From Blautia hansenii DSM 20583 (lineage in GTDB: Bacteria > Bacillota > Clostridia > Lachnospirales > Lachnospiraceae), in assembly GCF_002222595.2 (NCBI RefSeq), contig NZ_CP022413.2, positions 690,501-754,500 on the forward strand: a stretch of 64,000 nucleotides of DNA, in the 5' to 3' direction. Under the pieces are notes generated by a model, which was given only the letters and a program-made list of their open reading frames with translations, ran no database searches and was not told the DNA's origin. Below, piece by piece: positions 12,503-60,605 of the stretch (positions are counted from its first letter, which is position 1; every line of letters starts with the position of its first letter). The position numbers were made by a program, and so were the translations under genes.

Positions 12503-13546
12503 TTAGGCCCCCAAAAGGGCGTCCATTTGCTCTTGAAATACTGCACTGGCTGGCAAAAATCCGAGGATCTTCCGTGGGTAGTTGTTCAGCCAGTTTGTTA
12601 TTGTCTGGATCACTTCGGCGCCGATCTCGTCGAAGTTCGTCCCCTTTGGCAGCCAGCGGCGGATCATCTTGTTGAGGTTCTCGTTGCTTCCGCGCTCGTA
12701 TGAGCTGTACGGGTGGCAGTAGTAGCACTTCGTCCGGGATCCCTCCGCCAGTATGCTACGTTCTATGCCGGGGCAGTCCGCAAACTCGCTGCCGTTGTCT
12801 ACGGTGATCGTTTGGAACACGTGAGGGAAAAGCTCACCCCATTCTTTTTCCAGATCGTCGAGGGCCTGCACCACGCTGGCCGCGCTTTTGTCCGGGAGTT
12901 TGGCCGTGATCTCATTCCGGGTGAGTCTCTCGGTCAGGACGAGGATCGCAGCCTTTCCCGGTCTGGCACTCACTACGGTGTCCATTTCCCAGTGCCCGAA
13001 GGTGGAGCGCTCGCCGATTATATCCGGGCGCTTTTCTATGCTTTCGCCCTTCGGTGCGCGTTTCTGAGCCTGTACCTTGTGGTAGCTGCGCTTCTTGTCT
13101 CCCTTAACCGGGAGGTCTTTGTTTGTGAGTCTGAGGAAGATCCCCTTCTCGATATAACTGTAAATGGTGTTTTTGCTCTTGATCTCCGTGTTGAACTGGA
13201 GCCCTTGTGCCTTGATTTCTCCCAGCACGGCCTCCGGGCTGTACTTTTCGTCTGCGATCTTGGTTTCTATATATTCAGCGAGGCGGTGATCGTTTCCGAT
13301 TTTCAGGTCGGCGCCTTTGGCTGCAAGGTTGGCCCGGTATTTCATTTCGCTGAGGTCTGAACTGTATCGGGTTTCCTCTGTCCAATCACTATTCCGGTGC
13401 GTGTACTGTCCGCGCTGCAGCTCGCGGTATATTGTGCTAATATGCACGCCGACAACTTCCGCGATCTCTTTCGGAGTCTTGCCGTCATTGTTCAGGGTTT
13501 CGATCCGGATCCTGTCGGATTTGCTCAGGTGTTTGAATCTTCTCAT
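12503..13546 (-). CDS. IS30-family DDE transposase (probable phage integrase/transposase)
   Basis: This 347-residue protein starts at ATG 13546, behind GGAGG. The N-terminal HTH (SKSDRIRIETL, GVHISTIYREL; residues 8-45) binds the ends. The catalytic domain carries GHWEMDTV (first Asp), ITVDNGSEF (second Asp) and SSYERGSNENLNKMIRR (Glu), the IS30 DDE pattern. It ends only 19 bp inside the left inverted repeat. No second inverted repeat was seen next to its other side, so it does not look like a lone IS inserted in the phage. It likely moves the whole prophage. It lies in one unit with an XRE regulator 65 bp upstream. Confidence 0.9.
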   Translation of the reverse strand: MRRFKHLSKSDRIRIETLNNDGKTPKEIAEVVGVHISTIYRELQRGQYTHRNSDWTEETRYSSDLSEMKYRANLAAKGADLKIGNDHRLAEYIETKIADEKYSPEAVLGEIKAQGLQFNTEIKSKNTIYSYIEKGIFLRLTNKDLPVKGDKKRSYHKVQAQKRAPKGESIEKRPDIIGERSTFGHWEMDTVVSARPGKAAILVLTERLTRNEITAKLPDKSAASVVQALDDLEKEWGELFPHVFQTITVDNGSEFADCPGIERSILAEGSRTKCYYCHPYSSYERGSNENLNKMIRRWLPKGTNFDEIGAEVIQTITNWLNNYPRKILGFLPASAVFQEQMDALLGA

Positions 13547-13610
13547 GGGTTTACCTCCAATATACAAAAAATGAGGGGCAGCCGAAGCCGCCCCCTTGAA
13601 TGTGTGGTGC

Positions 13611-13871
13611 TTATTTCTCATACTCTGCTAAAAGCTCGGACGTTTCCGCGTCTGTCACTATATCTGAGAGTTTACAACTCAGCGCTTTACAGATCCGCAG
13701 CAGCGTGGAGAGCTGCGCCTTGCTTATATCCCGGTCGCCCTGTTCGTATTTCTGATACATTCGGACGTTTACCCCGGCGGCTTCCGCGAGCTGCGACTGG
13801 GAGAGGCCAGCGGCCTGTCTGAGCTTTTGCAGTTTTTCGTTTTTATAATTTACCTTTACCGTTATTTCCAT
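13611..13871 (-). CDS. XRE-family transcriptional regulator
   Basis: This 86-residue protein carries one Cro/CI-type HTH: KLQKLRQAAGLSQSQLAEAAGVNVRMYQKYEQGDRDIS, residues about 13-50. The C-terminus is short, so it resembles small phage regulators (Cro-like) or antitoxin-type proteins. A GGAGG site precedes the ATG. It lies downstream of a terminator-like hairpin and just before the transposase gene, so it may control transposase expression. Confidence 0.8.
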   Translation of the reverse strand: MEITVKVNYKNEKLQKLRQAAGLSQSQLAEAAGVNVRMYQKYEQGDRDISKAQLSTLLRICKALSCKLSDIVTDAETSELLAEYEK

Positions 13872-17995: not shown

Positions 17996-18352
17996 TTAGC
18001 TTTCATAAATAGATTCGATCCCCTGCCTCGTCAGGAAGTCCTTCTGCTCATGTTTGACCTTGGCGGCATAGTCGAGGGCCGCGTGCATATCACCGTTGCA
18101 GTGGGCGTCCGGGATCCGCTGCACGGCTCTGGCCGTGGCTTCTCCGAGGGCGATCGCGGCGTTTACTCCCTGCACTAAAAAAAGCTCCTGCTGTTCGTGG
18201 AGCTTTTCGCGCTTGTCCTGAGCTTCTCGTCGCTGTTTTTCTTCCTTCTCCAGTTTCTTGCTCTGTTTCTGGATTTTCTGCTCGATACACCAGAAGCAGA
18301 ACCCAGTGATCGCCGAAGGAAGGCAGGCGATCAAAACTGATTCAATTCCCAT
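17996..18352 (-). CDS. Small membrane-anchored coiled-coil protein
   Basis: I choose ATG 18352 because GCAGGAGGTGACAC lies just before it. The 118 residues begin with a hydrophobic segment (ESVLIACLPSAITGFCFWCI). A charged coiled coil follows (QKIQKQSKKLEKEEKQRREAQDK), then an Ala-rich region. It overlaps the 3' end of the reverse transcriptase by 22 bp. It could be a holin-like or lysis helper protein; the role is not established. Confidence 0.65.
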   Translation of the reverse strand: MGIESVLIACLPSAITGFCFWCIEQKIQKQSKKLEKEEKQRREAQDKREKLHEQQELFLVQGVNAAIALGEATARAVQRIPDAHCNGDMHAALDYAAKVKHEQKDFLTRQGIESIYES

Positions 18353-19476
18353 TGTGTCACCTCCTGCGGCAGCTCTATGTCTGCCATTTCTTTGCGTTTG
18401 AAAATAATATTTTTCTCGATCCATTTCTGGAGCCCGTGAGTGGAGCAGTGGCCCATAAGTCCGAAGTAGCTCTGCATGGTCGCGTCTACCGCGTCGAAGT
18501 CGATCAGCCCGGCCTCGTACTCTTTCGCTATGTAGCGCATACGTGCCTTCATTTTCTTGACCGACTGAGCTGTCGGTTTGCGGTACCCCGGATAGATTCG
18601 GCAGCCCACGAAGGTGATCCCGTGCTTGACGAGTCCGATCGTGGTTTTGCTGTTCAATTCGAGGTGCAGGACTTCGTTCAGATACTTCTCGATCGCAGCC
18701 CTCCACCGGTTCAGTGTGGCTGCGTCAGGATAGAGCAGCGCCATGTCGTCCATGTATCTGTCGTAAAAATGGGCTTTCAGCTCGTGCTTGATATACTGAT
18801 CCAGCTCATTGAGGCAGACGTTCGCGAGTAGCTGGCTCGTGAGGTTTCCGATCGGCATACCTACCTCGAACAGTCTTTCAGACGGTGGGATCTCGTCGGC
18901 AGACTTTCCCGGAGGCAGTCCAAAGGGTGTATGGTCACAATTTATAATCGTTTCCATAAGCCAGAGGTAGCCGTCCTCGTTCGGGAACTTCCGGCGGAGT
19001 ATGTCGAGCAGTACCCGGTGATCCACCCGGTAAAAATACTTTGATACGTCCAGTTTCAGGTAGTACCAATTGCCCGGCTTCCGATCCACGAGCGTGCACC
19101 AGTATTGAAGCCGGTCGGCTGCTCTGGTGGTTCCTTTTCCCACCCTGCACCCGTAGCTGTGGTATATCATGCCATTGTCGAGGTGTTGGTTTGTCTGGAG
19201 GTAGATCGCCCACTGCACGACACGATCCCGGAAGCCCAGAGCCATGACGAGCCGTTTCTTCGGTTCATGGACGTAAAACTGCCGGTACCGGCCCACTTTG
19301 TAGGCGTGCCAGATCAGGTCGTTTTGTATGCTGATCAGGTTTTCCTCCAGATTCGCCGCGAAGGCGGTCACGTCGTTGCGGTACCACTTCTCGCTTGCTG
19401 CCTCGTGGTATGCGTCCAGAAGATTCTCCCACGAGTATATTCTCTCCAGAAGGGAGGGCTGGTTTCTTGGATCCAT
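18331..19476 (-). CDS. Diversity-generating retroelement reverse transcriptase
   Basis: This is a 381-residue reverse transcriptase without maturase or nuclease domains. Fingers/palm motifs include KLDVSKYFYRVDH. The DGR-type signature is GMPIGNLTSQLLANVCLNELD, and the active site is DRYMDDMALL (about residue 243). DGR enzymes copy template RNA and misincorporate opposite adenines. The start at 19476 follows AAGGAGG; the upstream open frame is read-through from the template. Avd, template and variable copy adjoin it. Confidence 0.95.
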   Translation of the reverse strand: MDPRNQPSLLERIYSWENLLDAYHEAASEKWYRNDVTAFAANLEENLISIQNDLIWHAYKVGRYRQFYVHEPKKRLVMALGFRDRVVQWAIYLQTNQHLDNGMIYHSYGCRVGKGTTRAADRLQYWCTLVDRKPGNWYYLKLDVSKYFYRVDHRVLLDILRRKFPNEDGYLWLMETIINCDHTPFGLPPGKSADEIPPSERLFEVGMPIGNLTSQLLANVCLNELDQYIKHELKAHFYDRYMDDMALLYPDAATLNRWRAAIEKYLNEVLHLELNSKTTIGLVKHGITFVGCRIYPGYRKPTAQSVKKMKARMRYIAKEYEAGLIDFDAVDATMQSYFGLMGHCSTHGLQKWIEKNIIFKRKEMADIELPQEVTQWELNQF

Positions 19477-19757
19477 GTCCTCGTTCCTCCTTGTGTTGTC
19501 ATAATTATGGCCCGCGTTGTGACATTCCTCGGCGAGATCTTTCCTCTGCGGTCGCCACGCCGCAGGATCCGGATCCCCCTTCTGCCCGCATAGCAGACAA
19601 CGGCCAGCCTGCGCGGTTTGCTCGGTGTCCCCGGTGGCCTCCACCGGCAGAGCAGCACGAGCGTGTATCTTTGGCCTTGTCGGCCGGGAAATGCATCCCT
19701 TTTGCCTTGGTGTTTCTGCTGGGCCTTGGCCCTCAGAAAATAAACAAATAAGGTAAG

Positions 19758-19872
19758 AGCGGCACGGAAGCCGATGTTCGTGTTCACATTGCTGCGGGAG
19801 TTGTTGCCGTTGAGGTAGAACACACCAGCGTTCGCACCGTTGTTCCAGTTGCCCCCGCGATACACGCAGCGC
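19758..19872 (-). repeat. DGR template repeat (TR)
   Basis: It is the 115-bp unmutated parent of VR1 and VR2. In coding sense it holds many AAC codons (Asn in WNNGANAG, LNGNNSRSN), the usual design for adenine mutagenesis. The low-variation end TCGGCTTCCGTGCCGCT (coding sense) is shared by all three copies and would be the homology anchor where retrohoming starts. The 427-bp gap 19477-19903 holds only this template and the RNA spacer leading to the reverse transcriptase; no separate gene is seen. Confidence 0.95.
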
Positions 19873-19903: not shown

Positions 19904-20248
19904 TTACTCGTTCGACTTTTTCCAGCCGCCGAGCATACGCCCGATTTCGTTCAGCTCCTTGCTCCATATTTCGTGGAGCCCCGGAGAGATCAGGCGATCC
20001 TCCGGAGAAACTGCTGTGTCTACGAGAGAGCGCAGCACGTCCAGCTTGGTGTCCATTTTGTTCTGGAGTTCTACCCGGCGCGAGCCTCTGGCCCGGTTGG
20101 CCTCAATGCAGAGCTCCAGCATATCCATGAACGCCGCCGTCATGTGCTTGCGATACTCGAATTTTTCGGGTTTTCTCATATTTGCGGTGCGTTCGCTCAC
20201 CCGGATCATGCTCCGAACGATACGCTGCCGCAGTTGTAAGTTGTCCAT
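19904..20248 (-). CDS. avd: DGR accessory variability determinant (Avd)
   Basis: This 114-residue, nearly all-helical, basic protein lies between the target and the template. It matches the four-helix-bundle Avd/S23-like family in size and pattern (RKHMTAAFMDMLELCIEANRARGSRRVELQNKM). Avd binds the reverse transcriptase and template RNA and is needed for cDNA priming in studied DGRs. AAGGAGTAACAAC precedes the ATG. Confidence 0.88.
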   Translation of the reverse strand: MDNLQLRQRIVRSMIRVSERTANMRKPEKFEYRKHMTAAFMDMLELCIEANRARGSRRVELQNKMDTKLDVLRSLVDTAVSPEDRLISPGLHEIWSKELNEIGRMLGGWKKSNE

Positions 20249-20270: not shown

Positions 20271-20295
20271 GAGGGTGGCTTGGTGGGCCACCCTC
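20271..20295 (-). other. Hairpin downstream of VR1
   Basis: GAGGGTGGC pairs perfectly with GCCACCCTC around a 7-nt loop, 46 bp past the VR1 anchor and just before avd. It could be the DGR target-recognition hairpin or a weak terminator; on the minus strand it is followed by TACCCTTTT. Confidence 0.6.
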
Positions 20296-20319
20296 ATGCC
20301 AGATTTTCAGATTGCCAGA

Positions 20320-21417
20320 TTACCGGATTTCCGGGATATAAGCGGCACGGAAGCCGAGGTACGTGGACACACCGCTGCGGGAGCCGGTGCCGTAGAGGTA
20401 GAACACACCAGCGTACGCACCGCCGTTCCAGTCGCCCCCGCGATACACGCAGCGCTCGGCTACGCCGTTATTCCACCACATGTAGTCGCCCTCGTATACG
20501 TCAGTAGTGACGTCAGAGTCCGGGAGAAGGGCGAGAGCGCGCAGCATAACTTTGGCAGCGTCTCCGATCGAGCTGTCGGCAGCAACCTGATAAAAGGCGC
20601 AGCTTCGGCTTTCATCTTTGGCGTTGGTGATCGAAGTAGAGTACGTCCACTTGTTGTTCACATAGTCCAGTTTTACGGTTTTACCGGAAACATGGGCGGA
20701 GCTGTCGGTCGTCTTGCTCTCAGGATCCACGAGGGCGCCGTCTGCGGCGTTGATAGCCTTCCAGCATGTGCTCGTTGCGTTCTGAGGGTTGTCCGGATCG
20801 GCTGCGTCGTTGTTTGCAAGGATCTGAAGCTCGCCCCAAACAAGGCGGATTCCTCCCTGCCATTCCCACACGTTGCCGTTCAGATCCCAGATACCAGCCA
20901 TGGTCTTGTCGTGGCTCCATGAGATCGGGCCGGTACCAGTTGCAACTCTCGCGATCTTGCCGCTTTCGTAGTAGCTCGGCACGGCTTTGTAATTACTTTC
21001 GCGGCTGTCTTTGCCGTAGTTGTTGTTACCATACGGGAGGAAGCCGTTTTTCTTGCACCAGAGAGCGATCGCGGCCCATTCTGCGTTAGTGCTCAGGTGC
21101 CAGCCTGCGCCCTTGGCCTCGCAGCGTGCGCGTGCGGTGTCGAAGTTGATACTTGCGGTCGGATCTTCGCCCGGCAGGCTGTACGCTACGGAGTTGTAAA
21201 CCTTGGCCTGATACTTGCCGTAGTAAAAGCCGGGGATTTCCACGCCGTTGACGATAAAGGCCGGGTGGGTGCTGTCATTTCCGCCGGTGAGTACGTCCGA
21301 GTTCTTAAACTTCGGGATATACACCAGAACGGAAGGGAGATCGGTGTCGTCTGTCTTGACGACGTTGTTCGGGCAGATCATTTTTACTGCCAGATTGGTG
21401 AGGTCAAAATTTGCCAT
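20320..21417 (-). CDS. DGR-diversified tail-tip/receptor-binding protein
   Basis: This 365-residue protein has a formylglycine-generating-enzyme/C-type-lectin-like fold. WHLSTNAEWAAIALW, GNVWEWQGG and the C-terminal YRGGDW...SRS...LGFRAA strands are visible. VR1 covers residues about 321-359 and ends 7 codons before the stop. It lies at the end of the tail genes, so it most likely displays the variable surface at the tail tip for host binding. No membrane segment is seen. AAAGGAG precedes the ATG. Confidence 0.9.
   Translation of the reverse strand: MANFDLTNLAVKMICPNNVVKTDDTDLPSVLVYIPKFKNSDVLTGGNDSTHPAFIVNGVEIPGFYYGKYQAKVYNSVAYSLPGEDPTASINFDTARARCEAKGAGWHLSTNAEWAAIALWCKKNGFLPYGNNNYGKDSRESNYKAVPSYYESGKIARVATGTGPISWSHDKTMAGIWDLNGNVWEWQGGIRLVWGELQILANNDAADPDNPQNATSTCWKAINAADGALVDPESKTTDSSAHVSGKTVKLDYVNNKWTYSTSITNAKDESRSCAFYQVAADSSIGDAAKVMLRALALLPDSDVTTDVYEGDYMWWNNGVAERCVYRGGDWNGGAYAGVFYLYGTGSRSGVSTYLGFRAAYIPEIR
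20341..20455 (-). repeat. DGR variable repeat 1 (VR1)
   Basis: It aligns with the template over 115 bp without gaps. By hand I count 14 differences, all at template adenines (coding sense). They change about ten residues, mostly Asn to Asp, Gly, Tyr, Thr or Ser. Confidence 0.95.
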
Positions 21418-27355: not shown

Positions 27356-30300
27356 ATTGAGCCACCTCCCGCATTTTTATAAATTCTTCCAGCCAGTCGA
27401 AGAACTCGGCCTCGTGGGCTTTGAGCTTCGCCATGAAGTCGTCCGCGTCGTCGCCGGTTCCTTCTGTCTGGATCTGTGGGCTCCATGTGAAGCCGGAGAA
27501 GTCGTAGTAAACTACCATGCCGCCACTGTCTGCCAGACTTCCGAGAGAGAAGTCGTCCAGAGTCAGAAGCCTTCCGGCCGTGCTTGTGAGTCCTTCGCCA
27601 GAAGATCCGCCGGTTGTGCTTGCAGTGTTGAACACTGAGGTGATCATGGTTTCCAACTTATCCCAGAGGGTTGCAAGAGGAACCACCGCCTCGGCGCCAG
27701 CTTCACCACCAGCCAGAAGATTGTTACCTGCTGCGCCGAAAATAGTCGGGCGCGTCAGAATACCGCCGTCCTTGTACCATGAAATACCGAAGTGTGGTAC
27801 GCTTGGCGGGTTGATCGAGAAGCTGCCGCTGATACTCACATGAGGGAGTTTCAGGTGTGGCAGGCTCCACGAGAAGTTAAACTTTGATTTTAGGGCGCTG
27901 ATCGCGTTTCCTACGGCGTCCCTTGCTGCCGACATTTTGCTGCTGATCGTCGAGTAAATACTGGAGAACTTACCCGACACTGTGCTGAGTGCGGAGCTGA
28001 GTCCTGAACTCATGGTGGAAGTGATTCCACTCATTAAGCTGGAAACGGTAGACTTTGCGCTGCTCAGTTTGCTGCTGATCGTGCTCCGGATACTTTCCCA
28101 TTGAGAGGAAGCGGTAGAGCTCACACTTGACCACGCAGAGCTTGCCACGCTGGTGATCGTACTCGTTGCCGAGCTTACGGCGGAACTGGCCGCCGAGATC
28201 TTGCTGCTCACTGTGGAGCTGATTGTATTCCAGAGAGAGGAAGCCGTGGAGCTTACGCTTGACCATGCGGAACTTGCCACGCTGGTGATCGCACTCGTCG
28301 CGGTGCTTACTTTCTCCTTGGCTGCGTCGATTTTGGAACCGATCGTGCCTTTGATCCCTTCCCAGAGGGAGGAAGCCGTGGAGCTGATCGCGTTCCATGC
28401 TGCGCTTGCTACGTTGGAGATCGCAGTCGTCACCGTGGTGATCTTTTCTTTTACGGCGTCGATTTTTTCGCCGATCACGCTCTTGATAGTCTCCCAGATA
28501 GAGAGCACCGTGTCCTTGCAGTTTTCCCAGATAAACCGAAACGGCAGCGTGATGATCTGGAAGGCTGCGCTGATAATTTCCTTCACGGCCATGATCCCGA
28601 CGGTCACAATGTTTTTAATTGTTTCCCATGCTCCGGACAAAAATCCGGTGATTGAGTCCCAGATATTCGTGAAGGTGTCGTGGATCTCGGTCATGGTTCC
28701 GGTAACGCTCGAATAAATTCCGGATAAAATTCCGGAGAAAAACGAGACGATCGCGTTCCATGTGTCCGTGAAAAATGTTTTGATTCCCGTCAGGATTCCG
28801 GAGAAAAACGACGAGATCGCGTTCCATGTGTCTGAGAAAAATGTTTTAACATTCGTCCAGACGGTTTCCCAGTCGGTGCCGAACCAGCCCAGAACGGTGT
28901 CCGCCAGAGAGGTGAACGTGCTGATCCAGTTCTCGAAGGTTGCCACAACGAAGTCCCAGACTGCGCCGAAAACTTCTTGGACGCCCTGCCATACCATGTC
29001 CCAGTCACCGGTAAAAATTCCGGCGAAGATGTCAAACAGGCCGGTCAGAATGTCGAGGGCCTCGTTCAGAATATTGCTGATCTGCTGGAATACGCCCTCG
29101 AAAATCGGAGCGAGCACCTCGCAGAAGCCGTCCCAGACTGCCTTCATTACTTCGGTTATGTCCTCGAACTCGAACCCCAGCGCGTTGAGCCTGTCCACAA
29201 TTCCTTGCCCGAACTCGTCGAACTTGGCCTTGATTCCGTCCCAGATCGCTGTGATCTTGTTCCTAAATTCTTCGTTGTTTTTCCATAAATTCGTAAAGGC
29301 GAGAGCCACGGCCGTGATCACTGCGATAATAGCAATAGCCGGAAGCGATACGCCTCCCAGTGCTGCAGCGAGTTTTACCAGTGCGCCCTTCACCATTGCG
29401 ATCTTGCTCGATATGGTTCCCCAGTTCATAGCCGCGATAACGGCACCGAGGCCGCTCACCGCTATGGTCACTTCTGGGATATGTCCGCCGAGCCATTCGA
29501 TCGCCGGGATCACGCCGTTAGTGATAAACTGCACACCTGCTCGTAGCTTACTTTCCAGCGCGTCGTAAATTTTGAGCCCCAGTTCCTCGAAGGCGCTGTT
29601 CATTGCCGCCACGTCGCCGCTGAGGTTGTCGTTCATAATATTGGCCATTTCCTCAGCGGATCCAGAAGCTCCGCGGAGTTCTTCCTCGTACCCGGCGATA
29701 TTGTCCATGCCTTCGTTGAGGATCAGGTTCAGGCCCTTGGTGGAGTCTGCGGTAAAAGTGGAAGATAGCGCGACGGCTCGTTCTGCGTCGCCCATTCCAT
29801 TTGTGGCGGCTTCCACTTCTGTGAGAATGTCGGTGAGATCTCGGAAGTTGCCCTGTGCGTCCATTACGGCCACGGAGGTTTCTCCGATCTTGATCGCGCC
29901 GTCCTTCATTCCGTTGGTTATGTCTCGCATAATCGCGGCCATGGCGGTTCCGGCTTCGGATCCTTTATAACCTTGGTTTGCCATTCCTTCGAGCAGTGAG
30001 GTGACGGTTTCGACGTCCTGCCCGGCTGCGTTTAAGTTGGCTGCGCAGTTCTTGTAGGCTTCGCCCAGCGCTTCGGCCGTGGTGTTACTGTGGCTTTGCG
30101 CGTAGGAGAGCAGATCTGCGAAGTATGCGGCGTCTCCGGCCTCCATGGCGAAGGCGCTCAGGTAGTCCGTTACCATATCGGAAGCCGCTCCCAGTTCCAT
30201 GCCGGAAGCGGCGGCCAGATTCAGAACGCCACCCAGCGCACTTGTGGACTGATCAGCGTCCCACCCGGCGAGGCTCATGTATTTGAGGGCCTCTGCTGCA

Positions 30301-52753: not shown

Positions 52754-53433
52754 CCCAGCACCTCCCCTCTGAGTTCGAGCTTCGTTTGTTCGACGATCTG
52801 GCTCTCCAGTCGGAGGGCACCGCGGGTGATAGCCTCCATTTCCTGCTCTTTCCTGCGGCGTTCGCTTTCCCTGTACTCTATCAGGCGTTGGCCTTTGTCC
52901 GGAAGGGATCCGGCCGCGTTGTCGATCTTCTCGGTTAATTGTGCCGGTGTCATGCTGCGAGACTTTTCCCGTTCGTACATTGGCGTGTACTGTTGCATGA
53001 AGGCTACCCGATCCATGCCGGGCTTGCCGCCTATGTATGCGCTGCGGTGCATTTCCCAGAGGGAAGTCCAGCCGATTGACTCAACGGCCCGCGCCACCAG
53101 AGGCGGGAGCTGGTGGGAGAGATCTCCGTGGTTGAATTGTCCGGCGCTGTACATGAGGTCGCTCACGGCCAGCCATGCCTTGTCCGGCTCTATGAGTTCC
53201 GGGTGCTGGATCTCCAGCATGATCTCCCGGACTTCGGCCACACTCGGCGGCCATTTGTTTGTTGCAATGTGTTTTTTTACTGCCAGCGCTACGATCCCGG
53301 ATTCGTCTTGCTCAAACATCATGGCCCAGAGATTCACCGTGGCCTCGATTGCTTTCGCGTCCTTGAACTTGTCAAAATTCGGGTAGGCGGTGACGACGAT
53401 CGCCACCAGTCGAGCCGCGTCTGCTTTTGTCAT
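52750..53433 (-). CDS. Replicative helicase loader/inhibitor (G39P-like)
   Basis: This 227-residue protein fits the loader/inhibitor of phage helicase family: KFKDAKAIEATVNLWAMMFEQDE and NKWPPSVAEVREIM. Such proteins load the host or phage DnaB helicase at the phage origin. It follows the initiator gene, overlapping by 4 bp. Confidence 0.8.
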   Translation of the reverse strand: MTKADAARLVAIVVTAYPNFDKFKDAKAIEATVNLWAMMFEQDESGIVALAVKKHIATNKWPPSVAEVREIMLEIQHPELIEPDKAWLAVSDLMYSAGQFNHGDLSHQLPPLVARAVESIGWTSLWEMHRSAYIGGKPGMDRVAFMQQYTPMYEREKSRSMTPAQLTEKIDNAAGSLPDKGQRLIEYRESERRRKEQEMEAITRGALRLESQIVEQTKLELRGEVLG

Positions 53434-54296
53434 ATCTCGAAGCCTCCTTCCTCGTCTGCGATTATCCCCGCGAGCACGTCCATGGTGTCAGGTTTTCCAC
53501 AATTTCCACCCGGTCGCTGTTGATAGCTTCCGGATCCGGCAGGTGGGAGAGGTTCGTCGTCCCAGCGTCCCTGATTGATCCATGTTGACGGGTTGGGAAT
53601 GAAGCGGCCACCTTCTCGCAGCCATTGTTCCGAGGTTTTAGCTGTTGCCACTGCCTGCATGATCTTCTCGAACAGTTCAGCGTCGGGTTTTGCCTTTTCC
53701 CATGCCTTCTGTGCTGCTTTCTTGCCGACTTTCTTCGGGTATGCAGTCCAGAACTCTGCGAAACGTCGTTCCTGAGCGTTTGGCTGCTTCTCGGCTGCGG
53801 GGGTTATGGGGGCATCCCCCTTATTTTCTGGTCTACTCTGGTCTACTCTGGTCTGGTCTACTCTACCTGCGGTCTTTTTCTGGTCGCTCTTGCTTACGTC
53901 CGCATACTGTCCGGCGGTCGTCCTCCGGTCGTTTGACTTGGCAGCAGCGCGGCGGGCTCTCGAACGGTTTTTCTCATTTTCTCGTTGTTCGATCAGCTTT
54001 CCGGTGTACTCGCTCCAGTCGTGGATCTCCAGAACGCCGTCCTCCGTTACGTCCAGCAGAGACGCAGAGGTCAGGGCGGCCACAAATTCCTCCGGATCTT
54101 TGTCCCACTGGGCCGCTCTTGCGATCATTCTGTCGGATATTCCAGCGAGGGATCCGTCCGGTGCGTTATCAATGGCCCAGAGCCAGAACGAGATCAGCAG
54201 GCCGAGCATGTGAGCCGGTTCAATATCGAGCTCGTCAGCAGCAGCCAGCACCTTGCGGTGGTCTTTCAGTTGTTGGTGAATTTGGATCCATGCCAC
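53430..54296 (-). CDS. Phage replication initiator (DnaD-like organiser)
   Basis: The N-terminal winged-helix-like domain (WIQIHQQLKDHRKVLAAADEL) occupies residues 1-110. A charged linker includes tandem RVDQTRVDQ. A C-terminal domain (RFAEFWTAYPKKVGKKAAQKAW) is typical of replisome organisers. I prefer GTG 54296, 8 bases after AGGAGG, over GTG 54305. Repeats in its middle may be the origin. Confidence 0.82.
   Translation of the reverse strand: MAWIQIHQQLKDHRKVLAAADELDIEPAHMLGLLISFWLWAIDNAPDGSLAGISDRMIARAAQWDKDPEEFVAALTSASLLDVTEDGVLEIHDWSEYTGKLIEQRENEKNRSRARRAAAKSNDRRTTAGQYADVSKSDQKKTAGRVDQTRVDQSRPENKGDAPITPAAEKQPNAQERRFAEFWTAYPKKVGKKAAQKAWEKAKPDAELFEKIMQAVATAKTSEQWLREGGRFIPNPSTWINQGRWDDEPLPPAGSGSYQQRPGGNCGKPDTMDVLAGIIADEEGGFEI
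53827..53867. repeat. Tandem repeats, candidate phage origin
   Basis: TCTGGTCTAC occurs at 53827, 53837 and 53852, with partial copies at 53847 and 53862, inside the initiator gene. Lambda and several Firmicutes phages also place origin iterons inside the initiator gene. Confidence 0.55.
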
Positions 54297-54382
54297 TGTC
54301 GGCACCTCCTTTCGTGGTTTGTTTCTGGTTCGGCCGTAGAGTTCCGCCGGTCTGTCCGGCGGTCGTCCTTCGGTCGGTGTTA

Positions 54383-54784
54383 TTAGTTAAAAGGAAGCTG
54401 TCCGTCGTCCGGTATGTCCATGAATCCGTCGTTGTTGGCGGGCTGAGGATTGCCATTTGCGTTGCCTCCGTTGCTGTCTGCGAAGTAAATGTTTGAGGCC
54501 ACAACTTCCACGGCCTTGCGGTTCTGCCCGGTTTTCTCGTCCTTCCATTTACGGGTGGAGATCCGGCCCTCAACTACGATCTGGCGGCCTTTGGAGAGGT
54601 AGCGGCCGCAAAACTCGGCGCGTTCTCTCCAGCACACGATCGGGATATAGTCCGGAGCGGCGTCTTTGTTCTTACTCGGTACCTGCACGGCGAGGTCGAA
54701 GCTCGCCACTGGTGTGCCACTCTGTGTGTATCTGATTTCAGGCTCCTGAGCCAGACGGCCCAGAAGCTCCACATGATTAAGCAT
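54383..54784 (-). CDS. ssb: Single-stranded DNA-binding protein
   Basis: The 133-residue OB-fold SSB has LLGRLAQEPEIRYTQSGTPVASFDLAV and YIPIVCWRERAEFCGRYL. It has a Gly/Asn-rich linker and an acidic tip ending DDGQLPFN. It covers single-stranded DNA in replication and recombination. It overlaps the ERF gene by 8 bp. Confidence 0.93.
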   Translation of the reverse strand: MLNHVELLGRLAQEPEIRYTQSGTPVASFDLAVQVPSKNKDAAPDYIPIVCWRERAEFCGRYLSKGRQIVVEGRISTRKWKDEKTGQNRKAVEVVASNIYFADSNGGNANGNPQPANNDGFMDIPDDGQLPFN

Positions 54785-55607
54785 TGTCTTGTCCTCCTTG
54801 CTGCTTTGCGTTGTCCATAGCGGCGCAGGCTTCGTCGTACTGGGCCCGCGTCAGGTTGTGCGGATCCTGCTGTCCGTATTTTTTCAGGATCCATTCGTTG
54901 ATCGACTGCTGAGAGTACCCGGCGTCCTCGCCTTTACGGTAGAGGCGGGAGAGCTGAGCGTCTGAGAGTGGTCGTGCGGCGCCTGAGCGCCCCGTCTGGC
55001 CATTTTGTGCCTGCGGCTGGGTGTTTCCTTGCCGGTTCCCGTTCTGAGCTCCTGTGTGCTGTTTCTGGCTCTGCTGAGGCGGTTCGCTGCTGTGGTCGCT
55101 CATGTCTGGATCGTCGTCGCCCTGATCAATGCCGAACTTCTCGAACAGGTAGTATTTGAGGCAGTACGTCCACGCGGAGCCTTTGGCCTTGTCCGGGCCT
55201 CCGTCGTTCGTTCCGATTGCGTGTAGAGTAACTTCCAGAGTCTCATCCGGGTTGTCTGCGTTCGTCCAGCGGATCGTGAGGTCGGCCTCGTACACCCAGA
55301 CAATGCGGTCGCCGTTTCTGGTGTGCTGCGTGAAGTTGGAGTAGTAGATCGGATCCCCGTTTTCGCTGTGCCGGGTTGCCTGCTCGCCTACAATGTCAAA
55401 ATTGACGCCGAACTCATTCATGGCCGGAGTGAGAAGCTGGTACACGTCGAAGATCTTCGCGAACTTGTACTTTACGCCGTCGCTGTGGGCCTTCTGGGTG
55501 ATAGAGGGAACGGCTTCGCGCAACTTGATGAACTTCTGCTGCAGCGTCAGCGGTACCGGTGGGGTGGTGGCCGTCTTTGTGGCCGCCGTTTCCTTTGCTG
55601 TTGCCAT
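54777..55607 (-). CDS. ERF-family single-strand annealing protein
   Basis: The 276-residue recombinase of the ERF type has YKFAKIFDVYQLLTPAMNEFGVNF and ADLTIRWTNAD, and GSAWTYCLKYYLFEKFGID matches its signature. A Gln-rich linker and a small C-terminal helical domain follow. It pairs complementary strands. Gene order is Gam-ERF-SSB. Confidence 0.92.
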   Translation of the reverse strand: MATAKETAATKTATTPPVPLTLQQKFIKLREAVPSITQKAHSDGVKYKFAKIFDVYQLLTPAMNEFGVNFDIVGEQATRHSENGDPIYYSNFTQHTRNGDRIVWVYEADLTIRWTNADNPDETLEVTLHAIGTNDGGPDKAKGSAWTYCLKYYLFEKFGIDQGDDDPDMSDHSSEPPQQSQKQHTGAQNGNRQGNTQPQAQNGQTGRSGAARPLSDAQLSRLYRKGEDAGYSQQSINEWILKKYGQQDPHNLTRAQYDEACAAMDNAKQQGGQDNA

Positions 55608-55618
55608 GTGTTACCTCC

Positions 55619-56275
55619 TTACACGTCCACCGTGAAGGTGTCCGGTTTCTCAATGATCTGCACGCCATCCACCAGCTCGCCGGTGGTTTTGTCTACGATC
55701 TGGCCGCCTACAATTTCGAGGCGCTTCCTGAACTCGCCCCACTTCGGCTTTTCAGTGTTCTGGATCATATCCTCATTGCCGGAGGCTTTCAGATAGGCCA
55801 GCAGTGTGTCGTCGTCCTGTTTCATGGTGCTGCCGCCGATTTTCTTCACCAGAGTGCCGGAGAGAAGGCGGTAGCTGTGTTTTGTCTTGGTTGTCTTGTG
55901 CGGGACTGTCTCGAAGTATTCCGCGAGCTTTCCAGTGAGAAAACGGGTGCCGTTTTCATATCTGCGCTGAGCAGCGTCGATTCTCTGCTGGATCTTCTCG
56001 ATCTGGCTTTCGCCCAGTGCGGTGATCCGGTCGAGCTCGGTCTTTTCTTCTGCGATTTTTCGGCAGGCCCAGTCGGCGCAGCCGTCGTCAGTGATACGCC
56101 ATGCCGGGCGCGGAGCGCTTTCGGTTTCCTCTGCGTCGAACATGTTCATGTCCATGCTTTCCAGTTCGTCCAGTGTTACAGCCGGAGTTCCCGGCTCTGT
56201 GGTGGGTGCTGCGATTGTTTCTTTGATTTCTGCGGCCTGCTCAGCCTCAGCTATTGCTTTCTTTGTCGTTGCCAT
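55619..56275 (-). CDS. Host-nuclease inhibitor Gam-like protein
   Basis: The 218-residue protein matches the Mu-Gam family: CRKIAEEKTELDRITALGESQIEKIQQRIDAAQRRYENGTRFLTGKLAEYFETVP. Gam protects linear DNA ends from host exonucleases. It overlaps the coiled-coil gene upstream. Confidence 0.9.
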   Translation of the reverse strand: MATTKKAIAEAEQAAEIKETIAAPTTEPGTPAVTLDELESMDMNMFDAEETESAPRPAWRITDDGCADWACRKIAEEKTELDRITALGESQIEKIQQRIDAAQRRYENGTRFLTGKLAEYFETVPHKTTKTKHSYRLLSGTLVKKIGGSTMKQDDDTLLAYLKASGNEDMIQNTEKPKWGEFRKRLEIVGGQIVDKTTGELVDGVQIIEKPDTFTVDV

Positions 56276-56498
56276 GGTTCTGTTCTCCTTCCTTTGCTTC
56301 CAGAGCCTTGCGGGCTTTCTGGAGTTCTGCCTGCGTGTCTCTCAGTTCCTTGTCCTTGCTGGTGAAAAACTGGTACCACTCGCCTGAGCTTTTCTTGTAC
56401 TGCTCGGCTTCGGCCTCGGCAGCGGCGGCGCGTTCCGCCATGCTGGCAAGTGCAGCCGTGAGCTCTGCGATCACGCTTGGCTTGTTTTCGTTATTCAT
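56247..56498 (-). CDS. Small coiled-coil protein beside Gam
   Basis: This 83-residue, mostly coiled-coil acidic protein (ELTAALASMAERAAAAEAEAEQYKK) may partner Gam. AAGGAGGCAACCG precedes the ATG. No family is recognised. Confidence 0.65.
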   Translation of the reverse strand: MNNENKPSVIAELTAALASMAERAAAAEAEAEQYKKSSGEWYQFFTSKDKELRDTQAELQKARKALEAKEGEQNHGNDKESNS

Positions 56499-57250
56499 TC
56501 GGTTGCCTCCTTAAAAAATCGGTGTCCGTTAATGGTCATTACATAGATCTGGGACTCGTGCCACTCGCTGTCCGTGAGAGCGGGAGCGTAAAAGTATTTG
56601 ATCGGCTCGGTCGTTGCCACGATCCCGAAGTCGAACACGTCCTGCACGGCTTCGAGGGCTTCCTGAGTCGGTTCCGGGCGGCGCTTGCTATATGCGTACA
56701 CGCGCAGCACTTCGTCCGGTCGGATCCCTTCATCCTCGCAGGTCTGGAGAATACACTGAGCTACTGCGATCTTTCCGGCGAAGGGTTCGCCTCCAGCTTC
56801 GGCCGTGAGCACCTGAGCAATCTCCAGTCGCTCGGCGTCAGTGAGAGCGTAGCGCTTCTGGATCCCTGCCTCTGCGGCCCATGCGTCTGTGACGTCCTCC
56901 CAGCTTACGGCTTGCCCGTCCTTGTAGTAAAAAACGTAGGGCTGAGATTCCTCGGCCGCCGGGCTGCTGGTTGTGATCGGGGCTGTTTTTGTTTGGGTGT
57001 GTTCTGAGAACATACCCACGACGCCGCGCACTGCGAACACGATCACCACTGTGGTGACTGCCAGCCCGCCGATCCCTTTCCAGTTCAGGCGCTTGCAAAA
57101 ACGGCGCAGCTGGTATAAAATAGGCTTAGGCTTTCGCGTGGTTTTTCGATTGCCTGTGCGGCTTCCCGGTTCCGACGGGTGGCCGCTTCTTTTTTCTTTG
57201 TACCCGGTGTATTCCACCGGGCTGTATACTCTCAGCGAGCTACTTCGCAT
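56495..57250 (-). CDS. Membrane-anchored SleB-like cell-wall hydrolase
   Basis: The basic N-terminus (residues 1-55) precedes one membrane segment (GIGGLAVTTVVIVFAVRGVVG). The outer Hydrolase_2/SleB domain follows: LTDAERLEIAQVLTAEAGGEPFAGKIAVAQCILQTC, then FYAPALTDSEWHESQ. SleB-type enzymes cut peptidoglycan. Here it is early, far from the lysis genes, which is unusual. GGAGGTAACAGAA precedes the ATG. Confidence 0.85.
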   Translation of the reverse strand: MRSSSLRVYSPVEYTGYKEKRSGHPSEPGSRTGNRKTTRKPKPILYQLRRFCKRLNWKGIGGLAVTTVVIVFAVRGVVGMFSEHTQTKTAPITTSSPAAEESQPYVFYYKDGQAVSWEDVTDAWAAEAGIQKRYALTDAERLEIAQVLTAEAGGEPFAGKIAVAQCILQTCEDEGIRPDEVLRVYAYSKRRPEPTQEALEAVQDVFDFGIVATTEPIKYFYAPALTDSEWHESQIYVMTINGHRFFKEATE

Positions 57251-57255
57251 TTCTG

Positions 57256-57990
57256 TTACCTCCTTCTTTGTCTGAGTTTGGCCGGGAGCGTATAGCTCGG
57301 AGCCTGCATGTATTTGTTGAAATTCTGTGGCCAGTAGGCCACCTTTTCGATCCGTTTCCCACTTACTCCATACTTCGGGTTATATCCGAACACGTTCACA
57401 TAGCTGAGAAGATCGGAGCGTTCCGCGTCCATGGCCTTGCACACCTCAAACAGTGCCGCCACGTCGTCGATCGCTCTGTGGGAGTTCTGAACCTTGTCCT
57501 CCAGCTTATAGGTGAGGATCGCGTTCGCCAGCTTGTGAGGATATGCCCGGCGGTCTTTGTAAACGGTTAGGCTGTCCAGATAGTCGGCAGCTTTCAGGGC
57601 TTCCGGGCCACCGTTTCCGTGTCTCCGGAGCATTTCAGCAGTAAACAGGAGATCAAACTGTGCATTGTGGGCTACCAGAAGGACGCGGCCGCCGCCGATC
57701 AACTCAGTGAAGCGAGCGGCAGCCTCAGCCTCGGTGATTCCTTCGTTTTCGAGCTGCTCGTCTGTGATTCCTGTTAGCTCGACGATCTTCTGAGGGATCC
57801 GCTCACCTTCCGGCAGCTTCACGAACACGTCGGCGCTGTCGGCCATGCGGAGGGTGCCCCGTTCGGTTTTCTCGACTCTGATCGCTGCCAGTTCAATGAT
57901 CTGGCAGCTTTCAGCTTCGAGCCCGGTTGTCTCAGTGTCAAAAAATACGACTGCTTTGTATTTCGTGAATACGTCCCGGAGCTCATTCAT
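57256..57990 (-). CDS. DnaQ-like 3'-5' exonuclease
   Basis: The 244-residue DEDD exonuclease has VVFFDTETTGLEAESCQIIELAAI (ExoI) and LVAHNAQFDLLFTAEML (ExoII). NSHRAIDDVAALFEVCKAM (ExoIII) completes it. It may proofread or process ends. It overlaps the DGR target 2 stop by 8 bp. Confidence 0.9.
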   Translation of the reverse strand: MNELRDVFTKYKAVVFFDTETTGLEAESCQIIELAAIRVEKTERGTLRMADSADVFVKLPEGERIPQKIVELTGITDEQLENEGITEAEAAARFTELIGGGRVLLVAHNAQFDLLFTAEMLRRHGNGGPEALKAADYLDSLTVYKDRRAYPHKLANAILTYKLEDKVQNSHRAIDDVAALFEVCKAMDAERSDLLSYVNVFGYNPKYGVSGKRIEKVAYWPQNFNKYMQAPSYTLPAKLRQRRR

Positions 57991-59245
57991 GGTCGTTCAC
58001 CTCCGTTTTAATCGTGATCAAGGTCGTGGTTGCGAGCTTTAACTGCTTAGAGGTCAGCTCGTACATGTCCACGGCTGCGTTCACCTGAGCCAGTGTAGCG
58101 CTGAGCCTTGCGGCCTTGGCGAGTTCTTCGTCTGTTGCCTTCTCGGCCAGTTCAGCGAAGCCTTCCGGATCCTCGCCGTGCGCGGCTTCGTAGAGCTTCT
58201 GAAACTGCCGGGCGAGTGCCTGCTTGATTCGTCCGATAAAGTCCGGAGCTAAAATGCTACGCTTTTTCGGTTCTGGCTGCTTCTTGTCAGAGTCCAGATC
58301 GTCCAGAGTGTCAGAGTCGCAGATAAACCGAACGCAAGCGGCACGGAAGCCGAGGTACGTGTACACATAGCTGCGGGAGTAGGTGCCGCAGAGGCAGAAC
58401 ACACCAGCGTACGCACCGTTGCCCCAGCCGCCCCCGCGATAAATAACCCGCTCGCCGTTAGAGTCGAGCCAGAAGTATTCGTCGCTTTCGTAGTCGTCGG
58501 CAGGATAGAGGCCGAGGTCTTTCAGCTTGTCCGGTGCGTCCATGTCGCTGCGAACTTCCAGATCCGTGAACTTTACGCCGTCGTAGTCGGTGCCGTCCGG
58601 GTGTACCGGTTGGAGGGTGATCTCTCCGTCGTGTACGTTGTAGTAAACCGGATCGCCGTCCTCGGTGTAGATCGCCTCCCACTCCGGCGAGTCTTTGGAC
58701 TGATCCGAGCCATAGGCTGCGCCGTTGTTCGGGATCACCTGCGGCATACCGTTCATAAATCGAACGCCGCCGACGTGCTCCCAGATATTGCCGCACATGT
58801 CAGCTACGCCGTAGGCCGTGCCGTCATGGTTCCACTGAACCGGGCCGGATCCGGTCAAGGTCTTGCCGCAGCCTCCTTCGTATGTAGTGCCGGTCTGCTC
58901 CGAGTGGCTGTGACTCTTGCCGCTTGCGGTGTTTCCGGTCGGCATGGTGTCGTTGTCCCAGCTCCAGAAGCCGAGAGCCACCCACTCGTCGTTTGTGATC
59001 AGGTGCCAGCCTTCGCCCTTGCTCTCGCAGAGGCGGATCGCTTCGTCGTGGCTGATATTCACAGCCGGTTTCATAAATGGGAGAGAGTACGGAACGCCGT
59101 CGATCAATGTGTTCGGGTATTTGCTTATCGCGTATTCCTTGACCTTGCGGCCTCTCAGGGTGTCAGGGAGTCCCAGCTCGGACGGGGTAAAAACCACCAT
59201 AATGTCCGGGCGCCCGTTTTTGTCGTAAATTACTTCGTTTCTCAT
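57983..59245 (-). CDS. Second DGR target protein, in the early operon
   Basis: ATG 59245 follows AAAAGGAGCAAAACC and overlaps a TGA (ATGA). The 420 residues hold a lectin-like/formylglycine-generating fold (WHLITNDEWVALGFWSW, GNIWEHVGGVRF). VR2 lies at about residues 269-303 (YRGGGWGNGAYAG). About 117 further residues follow (helical, KKRSILAPDFIGRIKQAL...). The fold is shared with the tail-tip target, but the setting among replication genes and the internal VR are unlike tail tips. No membrane segment or signal is seen. Confidence 0.88.
   Translation of the reverse strand: MRNEVIYDKNGRPDIMVVFTPSELGLPDTLRGRKVKEYAISKYPNTLIDGVPYSLPFMKPAVNISHDEAIRLCESKGEGWHLITNDEWVALGFWSWDNDTMPTGNTASGKSHSHSEQTGTTYEGGCGKTLTGSGPVQWNHDGTAYGVADMCGNIWEHVGGVRFMNGMPQVIPNNGAAYGSDQSKDSPEWEAIYTEDGDPVYYNVHDGEITLQPVHPDGTDYDGVKFTDLEVRSDMDAPDKLKDLGLYPADDYESDEYFWLDSNGERVIYRGGGWGNGAYAGVFCLCGTYSRSYVYTYLGFRAACVRFICDSDTLDDLDSDKKQPEPKKRSILAPDFIGRIKQALARQFQKLYEAAHGEDPEGFAELAEKATDEELAKAARLSATLAQVNAAVDMYELTSKQLKLATTTLITIKTEVNDHE
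58337..58441 (-). repeat. DGR variable repeat 2 (VR2)
   Basis: It aligns to the template over 105 bp without gaps, with 14 differences by hand count, all at template adenines (coding sense). Homology ends in the YRGG region on one side and at the shared TCGGCTTCCGTGCCGCT anchor on the other. It lies 38.5 kb from the template. Confidence 0.93.
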
Positions 59246-59420
59246 GGTTTTGCTCCTTTTCTGTATTTGCTGCGGCAGATCGGGCACTTGTAGCCGTACC
59301 ACGGGATCACCGCCTGCTTGCTTACATTCCAGTCCAGCCCGCACTCTTGGCATACTTCATAGCGGCAGCCGTCGCGCCGGGCATGAGTACGGGCCCGCTT
59401 AGGTTTCGCGAGTCGTTCAT
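59242..59420 (-). pseudogene. Zinc-ribbon protein, start frame broken or unresolved
   Basis: ATG 59420 has an excellent GGAGGTGATCCC site, but its frame stops at 59322 after 32 codons. The neighbouring frame encodes a convincing zinc ribbon (RYEVCQECGLDWN, YKCPICRSKYRKG). It ends with TGA at 59242, overlapping the next gene's ATG. A one-base shift just after the ATG would join them. Decay, sequencing error or translational shift are all possible. Confidence 0.55.
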
Positions 59421-59431
59421 GGGATCACCTC

Positions 59432-60247
59432 CTATCCAGCGGCCAGCCTGCTGCATAGCTGCCTCATAAGCAGCCGCTTGTATTTCTTCCGGGTTCTCCA
59501 TTTCCGTGCGTGTTTGTATAGGTGCCACCATTTCTGGTGGGTGTTGGCTCTATATAGTAGGGAGTCCACAAAAGTGTCCACGGCTTTTCGTGCGTATTGC
59601 CGGAACTTCTGGAACCGTTCCGCAAGCTCGTCCATGAGTTGTCGGACTGCGCGAGCTGCTGCCTTCATTGCGTCGGCGAGAGCGTCGAGCAGGGCAGTGG
59701 CGGCAGGTGGGCCGATCTGGATCGTGAGCTCTGTGTGCTGAGGTTCTGGTGGCGACTCGTCCGGGAGTGGATCGCTTCGCGCCTGATCCGCAGCTATGAG
59801 CTGCTGGCGTTTCTCGTAGTCCTCGACGCTCATGTAGCCGTCGAATATATATGGATCCGGTTCCTCGGTGGTTTCCTTGCCGTACCATGGCATATCTGCC
59901 GGGAGATTTTCCGGGCGTGGTATCGGCTCAGGAGGGAAGGCTGTCGAGTTTTTCAGGAGATTGCAGCCGCCTTCGTAGTGCCAGAGAATACCGGCCTCCA
60001 GTTCTGCGATCGTCATGTTCTCGCCGAAGTGCCCGCAGTAGTAGCCGTTCACCATGACAGCGTTCGGATCCTGTTCCAAAATTTCGGCGGCAGTGCTCAG
60101 ATCCTCCAGCTCGAAGGTGTCGGAGTCTTGGTTGAGCCAGACGCTTTCAGCGTGCCAGCTTCGGCCAGTTTTCCATATAATCACCCACGCTATACCGTCG
60201 CGGATTTCTTCGGCGTACTGCCGAGCTATTTCGTGTAATGCTGCCAT
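59432..60247 (-). CDS. Large early protein, unknown
   Basis: ATG 60247 follows AAAGGAGCGACAAC. The 271 residues open ALHEIARQYAEEIRDGIAWVIIWKTGRSWHAESVWL, then a Pro-rich linker near 165-185. The basic helical end has KYKRLLMRQL. It is among the first genes of the early operon. No family is recognised. Confidence 0.68.
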   Translation of the reverse strand: MAALHEIARQYAEEIRDGIAWVIIWKTGRSWHAESVWLNQDSDTFELEDLSTAAEILEQDPNAVMVNGYYCGHFGENMTIAELEAGILWHYEGGCNLLKNSTAFPPEPIPRPENLPADMPWYGKETTEEPDPYIFDGYMSVEDYEKRQQLIAADQARSDPLPDESPPEPQHTELTIQIGPPAATALLDALADAMKAAARAVRQLMDELAERFQKFRQYARKAVDTFVDSLLYRANTHQKWWHLYKHARKWRTRKKYKRLLMRQLCSRLAAG

Positions 60248-60267
60248 GTTGTCGCTCCTTTCTTTTT

Positions 60268-60516
60268 TTATATAGTGGTGGATTTTCGCCCGCGGCACTT
60301 AAAGCTCTCAATGAGTCGGCGCTGGGCGAGTTCGGCGCTATACTCTCGGCGCATGTTCTTGTCGAGCTGGCCGGTGTCGCCTCTTTTCAGTTCTTTATAG
60401 ATAGTCGCCACATGGACGCCGAGGTCGATCGCAATGTCGGCCGGACGTCCTCCGGCTGCGTATTCCGTCTCGATTTTCTCGCGGTCGCCGAATGTCAAAT
60501 ATCGGTAGTTTCGCAC
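60268..60516 (-). CDS. IS30-type HTH protein at the right end
   Basis: A GTG start (60516) follows AGAGAGGTGAG; an upstream ATG lies inside the terminal repeat and has no such site. The 82 residues match the start of the phage's own transposase: LTFGDREKIETEYAAGG, IAIDLGVHVATIYKELKRGD and YSAEL. No catalytic domain is present. It is placed beside the right terminal repeat. It may regulate transposition or early transcription by binding ends. Confidence 0.75.
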   Translation of the reverse strand: MRNYRYLTFGDREKIETEYAAGGRPADIAIDLGVHVATIYKELKRGDTGQLDKNMRREYSAELAQRRLIESFKCRGRKSTTI

Positions 60517-60580
60517 GTTCTCACCTCTCTTTCTGTGCTTTTCAGGTAAAAAAATAATGCGTCCGGAGGCTTTCGCTTCC

Positions 60581-60605
60581 TTTCGCATTTAATATTATCT
60601 TTTCC
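60581..60605 (-). repeat. Right terminal inverted repeat
   Basis: Read inward (minus strand) it begins GGAAAAG and ends TAAATGCGAAA, matching the left end at 21 of 25 positions. It directly adjoins the right direct repeat. Confidence 0.85.

Follow-up and report, generated by a model that had tools for sequence, protein, structure and literature searches.

The best-known phage retroelements diversify receptor-binding proteins. In BPP-1, Mtd is rewritten by adenine mutagenesis from a template repeat (TR) to a variable repeat (VR), with the accessory protein Avd and a reverse transcriptase (RT), and a recipient element lies 3' of the VR (Guo 2011, PMC3240598). This system carries an IMH and a GRNA-loop hairpin and has no CTG chain; the hairpin strongly promotes homing there (PMC3240598), and has been reported as not strictly required (PMC12875486). 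According to a large survey, VRs usually lie at the C-terminus because recipient signals escape coding constraint only when they stand outside genes (PMC8144416). Closest to the locus studied here is Faecalibacterium phage FP_Lagaffe, for which one VR was described (Cornuault 2018, PMC5883640), a count shared by a later study that reports a second variable region in Lagaffe_CP (Gulyaeva 2024, PMC11792537). That study documents elevated variability, with loss of adenines, at the two VRs in Lagaffe_CP and 18 cognate genomes, describes both targets as Mtd-like, and reads them as receptor binding, with the suggestion that they broaden host range; since the second region is in print, the two-target arrangement is not new. 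FP_Lagaffe and Lagaffe_CP belong to the same phage genus as our element, with the same RT, Avd, TR, VR1 and VR2. The available excerpts of these two papers leave undescribed the operon slot, the TCTG arrays, the missing hairpin, the TR-marker test and the C-terminal tail. New here are the TR-marker test, the arrays, the conserved slot and the absence of a late-type N-terminal segment.

Second targets outside the tail genes are also found in nd4 and in Roseburia phage Shimadzu. Like VR2, target 2 of nd4 is a second target of one TR, occupies a slot between an LPD15 gene and an exonuclease gene with an 8-nt overlap, and continues into a C-terminal tail after its VR; it differs in belonging to another lectin family (Pfam DUF6273) and in being a slot target with no TCTG array. 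Its VR is separated from the nd4 TR by nine adenine differences and one other. Receptor binding was proposed for this protein in the tentaclin paper (PMC10743442), in whose available text a word search returned none of the terms early, replication and exonuclease. Our description of the nd4 slot protein as unrelated to the VR2 protein was softened given weak local similarity, 26% over 136 columns running from the VR into the tail (E 3e-4, for a single comparison). Shimadzu orf43 resembles VR2 as a second target in an early operon, just before ERF/SSB, but has a C-terminal VR, is of DUF6273 type, lies apart from the exonuclease, and has no TCTG array.

The window analysed here, a stretch of 64,000 nt from the 3.07-Mb genome of Blautia hansenii DSM 20583 (NZ_CP022413.2, positions 690,501 to 754,500), contains a prophage with 97.5% identity to FP_Lagaffe over 78% of a 22.5-kb query. 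This prophage holds a complete DGR, with an RT of DGR type and Avd (profile matches PHROG 1423 and PF22296) in the same element as two targets, one tail-side and one at 57983-59245. The DGR components are as follows.

18331..19644, minus strand: DGR reverse transcriptase (PHROG 1423)
19758..19862, minus strand: TR core, 105 nt
19904..20248, minus strand: Avd accessory protein (bAvd, PF22296)
20320..21417, minus strand: first DGR target, late, tail-side, 365 aa
20341..20445, minus strand: VR1, 105 nt
57983..59245, minus strand: second DGR target gene, 420 aa, with ATG at 59245 behind aaaggag
58337..58441, minus strand: VR2, 105 nt, residues 269-303 of the 420-aa protein

The RT was sought in 22 records and matched in 14; the host genome carries six further RVT_1 matches elsewhere, one with an in-frame stop. 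Genes in the FP_Lagaffe record run from head, tail, VR1 target, Avd, RT, lysis and regulators to an IS30 transposase, then through HTH, a hypothetical gene, VR2 target, exonuclease, Gam, ERF, SSB and replication; tblastn identified the hypothetical gene as the LPD15 protein of the window. Comparison of the two gene orders would place the attachment site between the IS30 transposase and the HTH gene. As integration at such a site separates TR from VR2, the 38-kb separation given in the initial annotation applies to the integrated prophage (38,475 nt) and not to the FP_Lagaffe record, where the distance is 9,456 nt. The IS30-family transposase of the window (12503-13621; HTH_38, with rve below cut-off) has been reported as the Lagaffe integrase.

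Comparison of the repeats shows adenine-linked rewriting of both targets. VR1 and VR2 each differ from the TR at 14 of 105 sites, and in both all 14 are template adenines, as the initial annotation had recorded for VR2 with coordinates and counts that hold; with 25 adenines in the 105-nt TR, the hypergeometric chance of this outcome is 5e-11 for each VR. The comparison was extended to eight of 11 paired phages (the window, Lagaffe and six others), leaving out G006 (one-base shift in VR2), G012 (a single ambiguous copy, at the end of a contig) and G015 (no copy on the RT-side contig). Against their own TRs, VR2 copies were changed at 103 of 193 adenine sites and at 4 of 647 other sites, while VR1 copies from six of these phages (those of G011 and G004, each one codon short, being omitted) were changed at 88 of 146 and 0 of 484, respectively. 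A VR2 held constant while VR1 varies, or differences at non-adenine sites in relatives, had been named beforehand as arguing against diversification; with 103 of 107 VR2 differences at adenines, neither pattern was found.

As the TRs of different phages also differ at non-adenine sites, these positions serve as markers of descent from a given template. Non-adenine mismatches of VR2 numbered four in all against the TR of the same phage and averaged 10.25 against that of another phage, and only 2 of 40,320 possible TR-VR2 pairings were as good as the true one, a tie that arises because two TRs are identical. Likewise, a T/C difference between the window and Lagaffe at site 76 is common to the TR, VR1 and VR2 of each phage. 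Such tracking is predicted by repeated homing into VR2 and marks it as a live target; taken with the adenine counts, these sequence comparisons make the VR2 gene almost certainly a true second target of the prophage DGR. The four exceptions, T>G at site 45 in G003 and G011 and two C>T changes in G014, show that the repeat is not restored at every homing event, or else that ordinary mutations can survive in it.

Also examined was whether VR2 might be a decaying by-product, a repeat in a barely functional protein that is rewritten just because homing strikes whatever TR-like sequence carries an array. Frameshifts in VR2 were found in 6 of 109 homologue clusters and in L019, compared with 0 of 111 for VR1, or 1 when P0196, a VR1/VR2 join, is included (p 0.014 or 0.064); the genes affected in or near the repeat are those of L019, P0027, P0030, P0033, P0034, P0035 and P0039, which indicates that VR2 may be dispensable. 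Set against this, scaffold residues and the tail are conserved in 94 listed homologues down to 63% identity (those of 415-440 aa without a TR join, from 120 listed among 1,270 matches), and the operon slot described below is retained. Within this set, the adenine-derived residues 273, 275, 276, 279, 286, 288, 289, 293, 295 and 297 reach entropies of 2.5-3.3 bits, while 10 of the 36 residues from 268 to 303 are invariant (270, 271, 272, 274, 280, 281, 291, 299, 301 and 303). Tyrosine is enriched in VR2 to 0.197 from the 0.046 expected under a simple model, of which RT context bias may explain part. Decay to a by-product is a very improbable account of VR2.

The 420-residue protein carries VR2 internally, at residues 269-303, with 117 more residues after it, as first described. 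The accompanying remark that most VRs end their protein is correct in general (PMC8144416, in the portion available), with the qualification that other internal VRs exist, including nd4 target 1 and Mushu. The predicted architecture comprises an FGE-type C-type lectin (1-309), a disordered linker (about 310-333) and helices (336-417), with mean pLDDT of at least 90 in most blocks of residues 1-309 and 79 at 271-280. VR2 falls within the predicted lectin fold, for which the nearest structural match is TaqVP, the Thermus aquaticus DGR variable protein (PDB 5vf4), which aligns to residues 1-306 only and not to the tail; Mtd is more remote, and aligns only from its residue 164 or 165 onward.

These similarities raise the possibility that the VR2 protein is a paralogue of the late target that serves the virion as a second receptor-binding or adhesion protein, although its gene happens to lie outside the late operon, such that diversifying both would widen host range. 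The fold is shared with the late target family at 34-41% identity, the protein matches PHROG 5302 'tail protein' (E 1.4e-7; the late target matches more strongly), and several of its BFVD structure matches are tail-fibre proteins. Variable residues of VR1 and VR2 have the same composition (chi-square p 0.12), so both could bind similar ligands; a distinct ligand read from VR2 composition was rejected accordingly. This role is also the one proposed by Gulyaeva 2024 (PMC11792537) and, for nd4 target 2, in PMC10743442. Against it, the VR2 protein lacks the N-terminal segment of late targets. A (F/Y)(D/E) segment was seen by eye in 42 of 45 late rows, the other three being perhaps cut, and in 0 of 36 early rows; the strict motif M(A/P)NFDL occurs in 21 of the 45. 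This absence suggests that the protein stays in the cytoplasm. Early targets (10 rows, including Dulem virus 37 on a long branch) and late targets (15 rows, labelled by likeness to VR1) fall on opposite sides of a tree branch with 99/95 support, six further rows belonging to no group and some of these lying on the late side; the division looks old.

Genomic context weighs further on the question of virion function. The neighbours of the VR2 gene are listed here in the order of the window.

53430..54305, minus strand: replication initiation protein
54383..54784, minus strand: SSB
54777..55607, minus strand: ERF single-strand annealing protein
55619..56275, minus strand: Mu Gam-like end-protection protein
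56495..57250, minus strand: Hydrolase_2 cell-wall hydrolase family protein
57256..57990, minus strand: DnaQ/RNase_T-type (DEDDh) exonuclease, whose start overlaps the VR2 gene end by 8 nt
59242..59424, minus strand: zinc-ribbon-like CxxC...CxxC frame, 60 aa stop to stop, overlapping the VR2 gene start
59432..60298, minus strand: LPD15-domain protein, upstream neighbour in the conserved slot
60268..60588, minus strand: HTH_38 DNA-binding protein, beside the inferred prophage end

The initial annotation set the gene between a zinc-ribbon gene and a DnaQ-like exonuclease; the latter was borne out, with its 8-nt overlap, while the former is a putative gene, a CxxC...CxxC frame in which no ATG, GTG or TTG was seen. 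Across 21 VR2-orthologue loci, which include near-copies (such as L012, L013, L015 and L027), a conserved order of LPD15, target, exonuclease, ERF and SSB was recovered: the exonuclease lies downstream in 19, ERF likewise in 18 (the other three contigs end before reaching it), and LPD15 precedes in 17. The orthologues thus lie outside the late or tail module, occupying the early-operon slot in 19 of 21 loci, which confirms the placement of the gene in a recombination and replication operon with Gam, ERF, SSB and replication genes downstream. The 8-nt overlap is present in all 20 unbroken VR2-type genes that stand beside the exonuclease, L153 included.

Viewed from the exonuclease, the slot is more varied. 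Among 20 exonuclease loci (18 of 44 found, plus nd4 and Shimadzu), five carry a lectin-type target in the slot (L102, L148, L149, L150 and L153), that of L102 having a VR1-like body and a VR2-type tail on a short contig. In three more, namely nd4 and, on inspection by eye, the nd4-like L151 and L152, the slot holds a DUF6273-type target that also overlaps the exonuclease by 8 nt. At L155 a small frame separates an nd4-like protein from the exonuclease, and the remaining 11 have no such target. Two lectin families can therefore replace one another in one operon slot. Both this conserved slot with its exonuclease overlap and the filling of the slot by another lectin family in nd4 argue against a virion adhesin, and we regard a place in the virion as possible but somewhat doubtful.

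Co-expression of the VR2 gene with the early operon is very likely from this arrangement. The early expression originally proposed is read from gene order only, which does not prove it, and a promoter scan found nothing decisive. A transcript study of the Lagaffe host, in the part available, reports 39 Lagaffe genes lowered together by supernatants (PMC7650636).

The elements 3' of the two VRs are as follows.

20271..20295, minus strand: 9-bp GC-rich hairpin 3' of VR1, with none equivalent at VR2
20300..20319, minus strand: TCTG array, 3 copies at spacing 8, 3' of VR1 and just past the stop codon
58288..58323, minus strand: TCTG array, 5 copies at spacing 7-9, in coding sequence 3' of VR2, a candidate recipient signal
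57983..58336, minus strand: coding sequence of the C-terminal tail, 117 residues after VR2, including the TCTG array and the helical region

At VR1, AATCTGGCAATCTGAAAATCTGG directly follows the stop codon that ends the gene, and at VR2 five TCTG copies lie in frame within 36 bases, encoding a linker such as YSGDSGDLDNLD. The coding strand of the window has chains of at least three TCTG (spacing 7-9) in just two places, 3' of VR1 and 3' of VR2; the opposite strand has a single further chain near 4,320, away from the phage genes. By phage, such chains were found at 0 of 8 TRs, 6 of 6 VR1 copies (three motifs each) and 8 of 8 VR2 copies (three to five). Among VR1-like targets on other viral contigs, a CTG chain of at least three was present in 37 of 40 loci (of 54 VR1-like loci, 40 entered the count), compared with 33 of 2,000 random windows. 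Codon choice within the VR2 array is one-sided: over the 21 loci, serine is TCT in 44 of 44 cases and leucine CTG in 40 of 40, compared with 8.6% of 477 serines and 43% of 632 leucines elsewhere in the same genes. Counting only the nine distinct array elements, 20 of 20 serines are TCT, and no more than 1 in 10,000 synonymous redraws did as well as the observed array in the six genes tried. From this one-sided codon use, a recipient signal seems to be embedded in the coding sequence, and the TCTG array is probably that signal.

Of the two VRs, only VR1 has a hairpin. GC-rich hairpins of 9-11 bp lie 44-47 bases downstream of VR1 in 6 of 6 cases, while a stem of at least 6 bp was found within 100 bases of VR2 at 0 of 10 loci, the TCTG array being present instead; the array may thus stand in for the hairpin, with VR2 presumably working without one. 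As the hairpin has been reported as not strictly required, this limits the description 'BPP-1-like' and not that of a DGR target. A survey of ten named phages, in which one further repeat pair on the opposite strand of Dulem virus 37 was not counted as a VR, found the array at 7 of 14 VRs; it was absent from BPP-1, Bise, Epona, both Shimadzu VRs and nd4 target 2, and VHML has two copies only. No title on such an array was returned by a full-text literature search, whose coverage left out most subscription papers. The available text of PMC3240598 contains neither 'ctg' nor 'direct repeat' as word starts, with 'tctg' twice inside words, and in that of PMC12875486 the sole 'tctg' falls within a probe oligo. 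An array of this kind would account for a variable repeat in the interior of a gene, and offers a short signal open to direct test.

Also annotated as a variable region in BPP-1 is variable region 2 (bbp36; NC_005357, 33229-33558), which also has an exonuclease and a single-strand annealing protein encoded downstream of it. We rejected it as a TR copy (best 40/100), and it has been described as a 24-bp repeat array (PMC2884959).

The residues that follow VR2 vary in number, the L020 gene ending inside the array, L153 having 21, L016 having 52 and others 117-146; the series is consistent with a tail that was extended in steps. The 117-residue tail, used as a query, gave 42 matches, of which 28 still have the lectin-domain end and are therefore pieces of VR2-type genes, while four of the other 14 comprise one LPD15-tail join, two tails fused to unrelated bacterial domains and one garbled copy. 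On these 32 of the 42 matches, an origin of the tail as a former separate gene was set aside, although a stand-alone tail gene may exist. The tail was likewise considered as a dock for the exonuclease, since L016 and L020 have neither a long tail nor an exonuclease, but L153 has an exonuclease with a tail of 21 residues, and docking is retained as a possibility. ExoI has been reported to limit DGR activity in a manner that does not need its nuclease function (PMC12875486), which makes the exonuclease beside VR2 an interesting neighbour, although any link is putative.

In the reading we prefer, the VR2 gene encodes an early, soluble, diversified lectin-fold binder that acts inside the infected cell and is likely marked by its in-gene TCTG array, a proposal that we hold with even confidence. 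By known DGR chemistry, TR RNA would be reverse transcribed with adenine errors and the cDNA would replace VR1 and VR2, each of which we suggest is marked by its own array. The recombination operon would then supply the VR2 protein, its synthesis coupled to that of the exonuclease, and the protein might remain cytoplasmic. Its variable face could bind a polymorphic partner that differs between hosts, perhaps a DNA-handling or defence protein of the host or of a rival phage, and the helical tail may hold the protein to a partner from the same operon. For the predicted intracellular role itself the balance is about equal. If the protein is indeed conserved, early and probably cytoplasmic, diversification by phages would extend to their activities within the cell.

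A related possibility is that the protein serves lysogeny or superinfection, acting within the lysogen to block rival phages or to bind the variable proteins of such phages. The HTH gene stands nearby, the inferred prophage end is about 1.3 kb away from the VR2 gene, and the exonuclease is followed by the cell-wall hydrolase (56495-57250), which has a hydrophobic N-terminal stretch and is encoded in the recombination operon, not with the lysis genes. Conversely, Gam, ERF, SSB and replication genes in the same operon are not expected to be active in a quiet prophage, and the VR2 protein has no match among PADLOC defence models. We consider such a role unlikely. Returning to the early, soluble binder, temperate phages of gut Clostridia may more generally keep an early slot for a DGR-diversified intracellular binder, an antibody-like repertoire encoded with exonuclease and ERF/SSB, filled from two lectin families, one of which has an in-gene TCTG signal replacing the hairpin; we offer this generalization tentatively.

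Several further observations concern the repeats themselves. VR1 copies of L076 and L083 are one codon shorter than their own TRs, and homing may therefore leave in-frame deletions. Database proteins P0018-P0026, P0029, P0031 and P0129-P0162 (476 and 488 aa) join separate repeats, with VR2 joined to TR in 11 of 11 proteins of 432 aa, VR1 to TR in 9 of 9 of 488 aa, and VR1 to the VR2 tail in 9 of 9 of 476 aa. These are probably assembly joins through the shared repeat, and a trap for automatic target calls. Finally, the tape-measure gene of the window contains three 110-nt copies at 132-nt spacing (28069-28442), with two more copies of 65 nt at 28717-28847.
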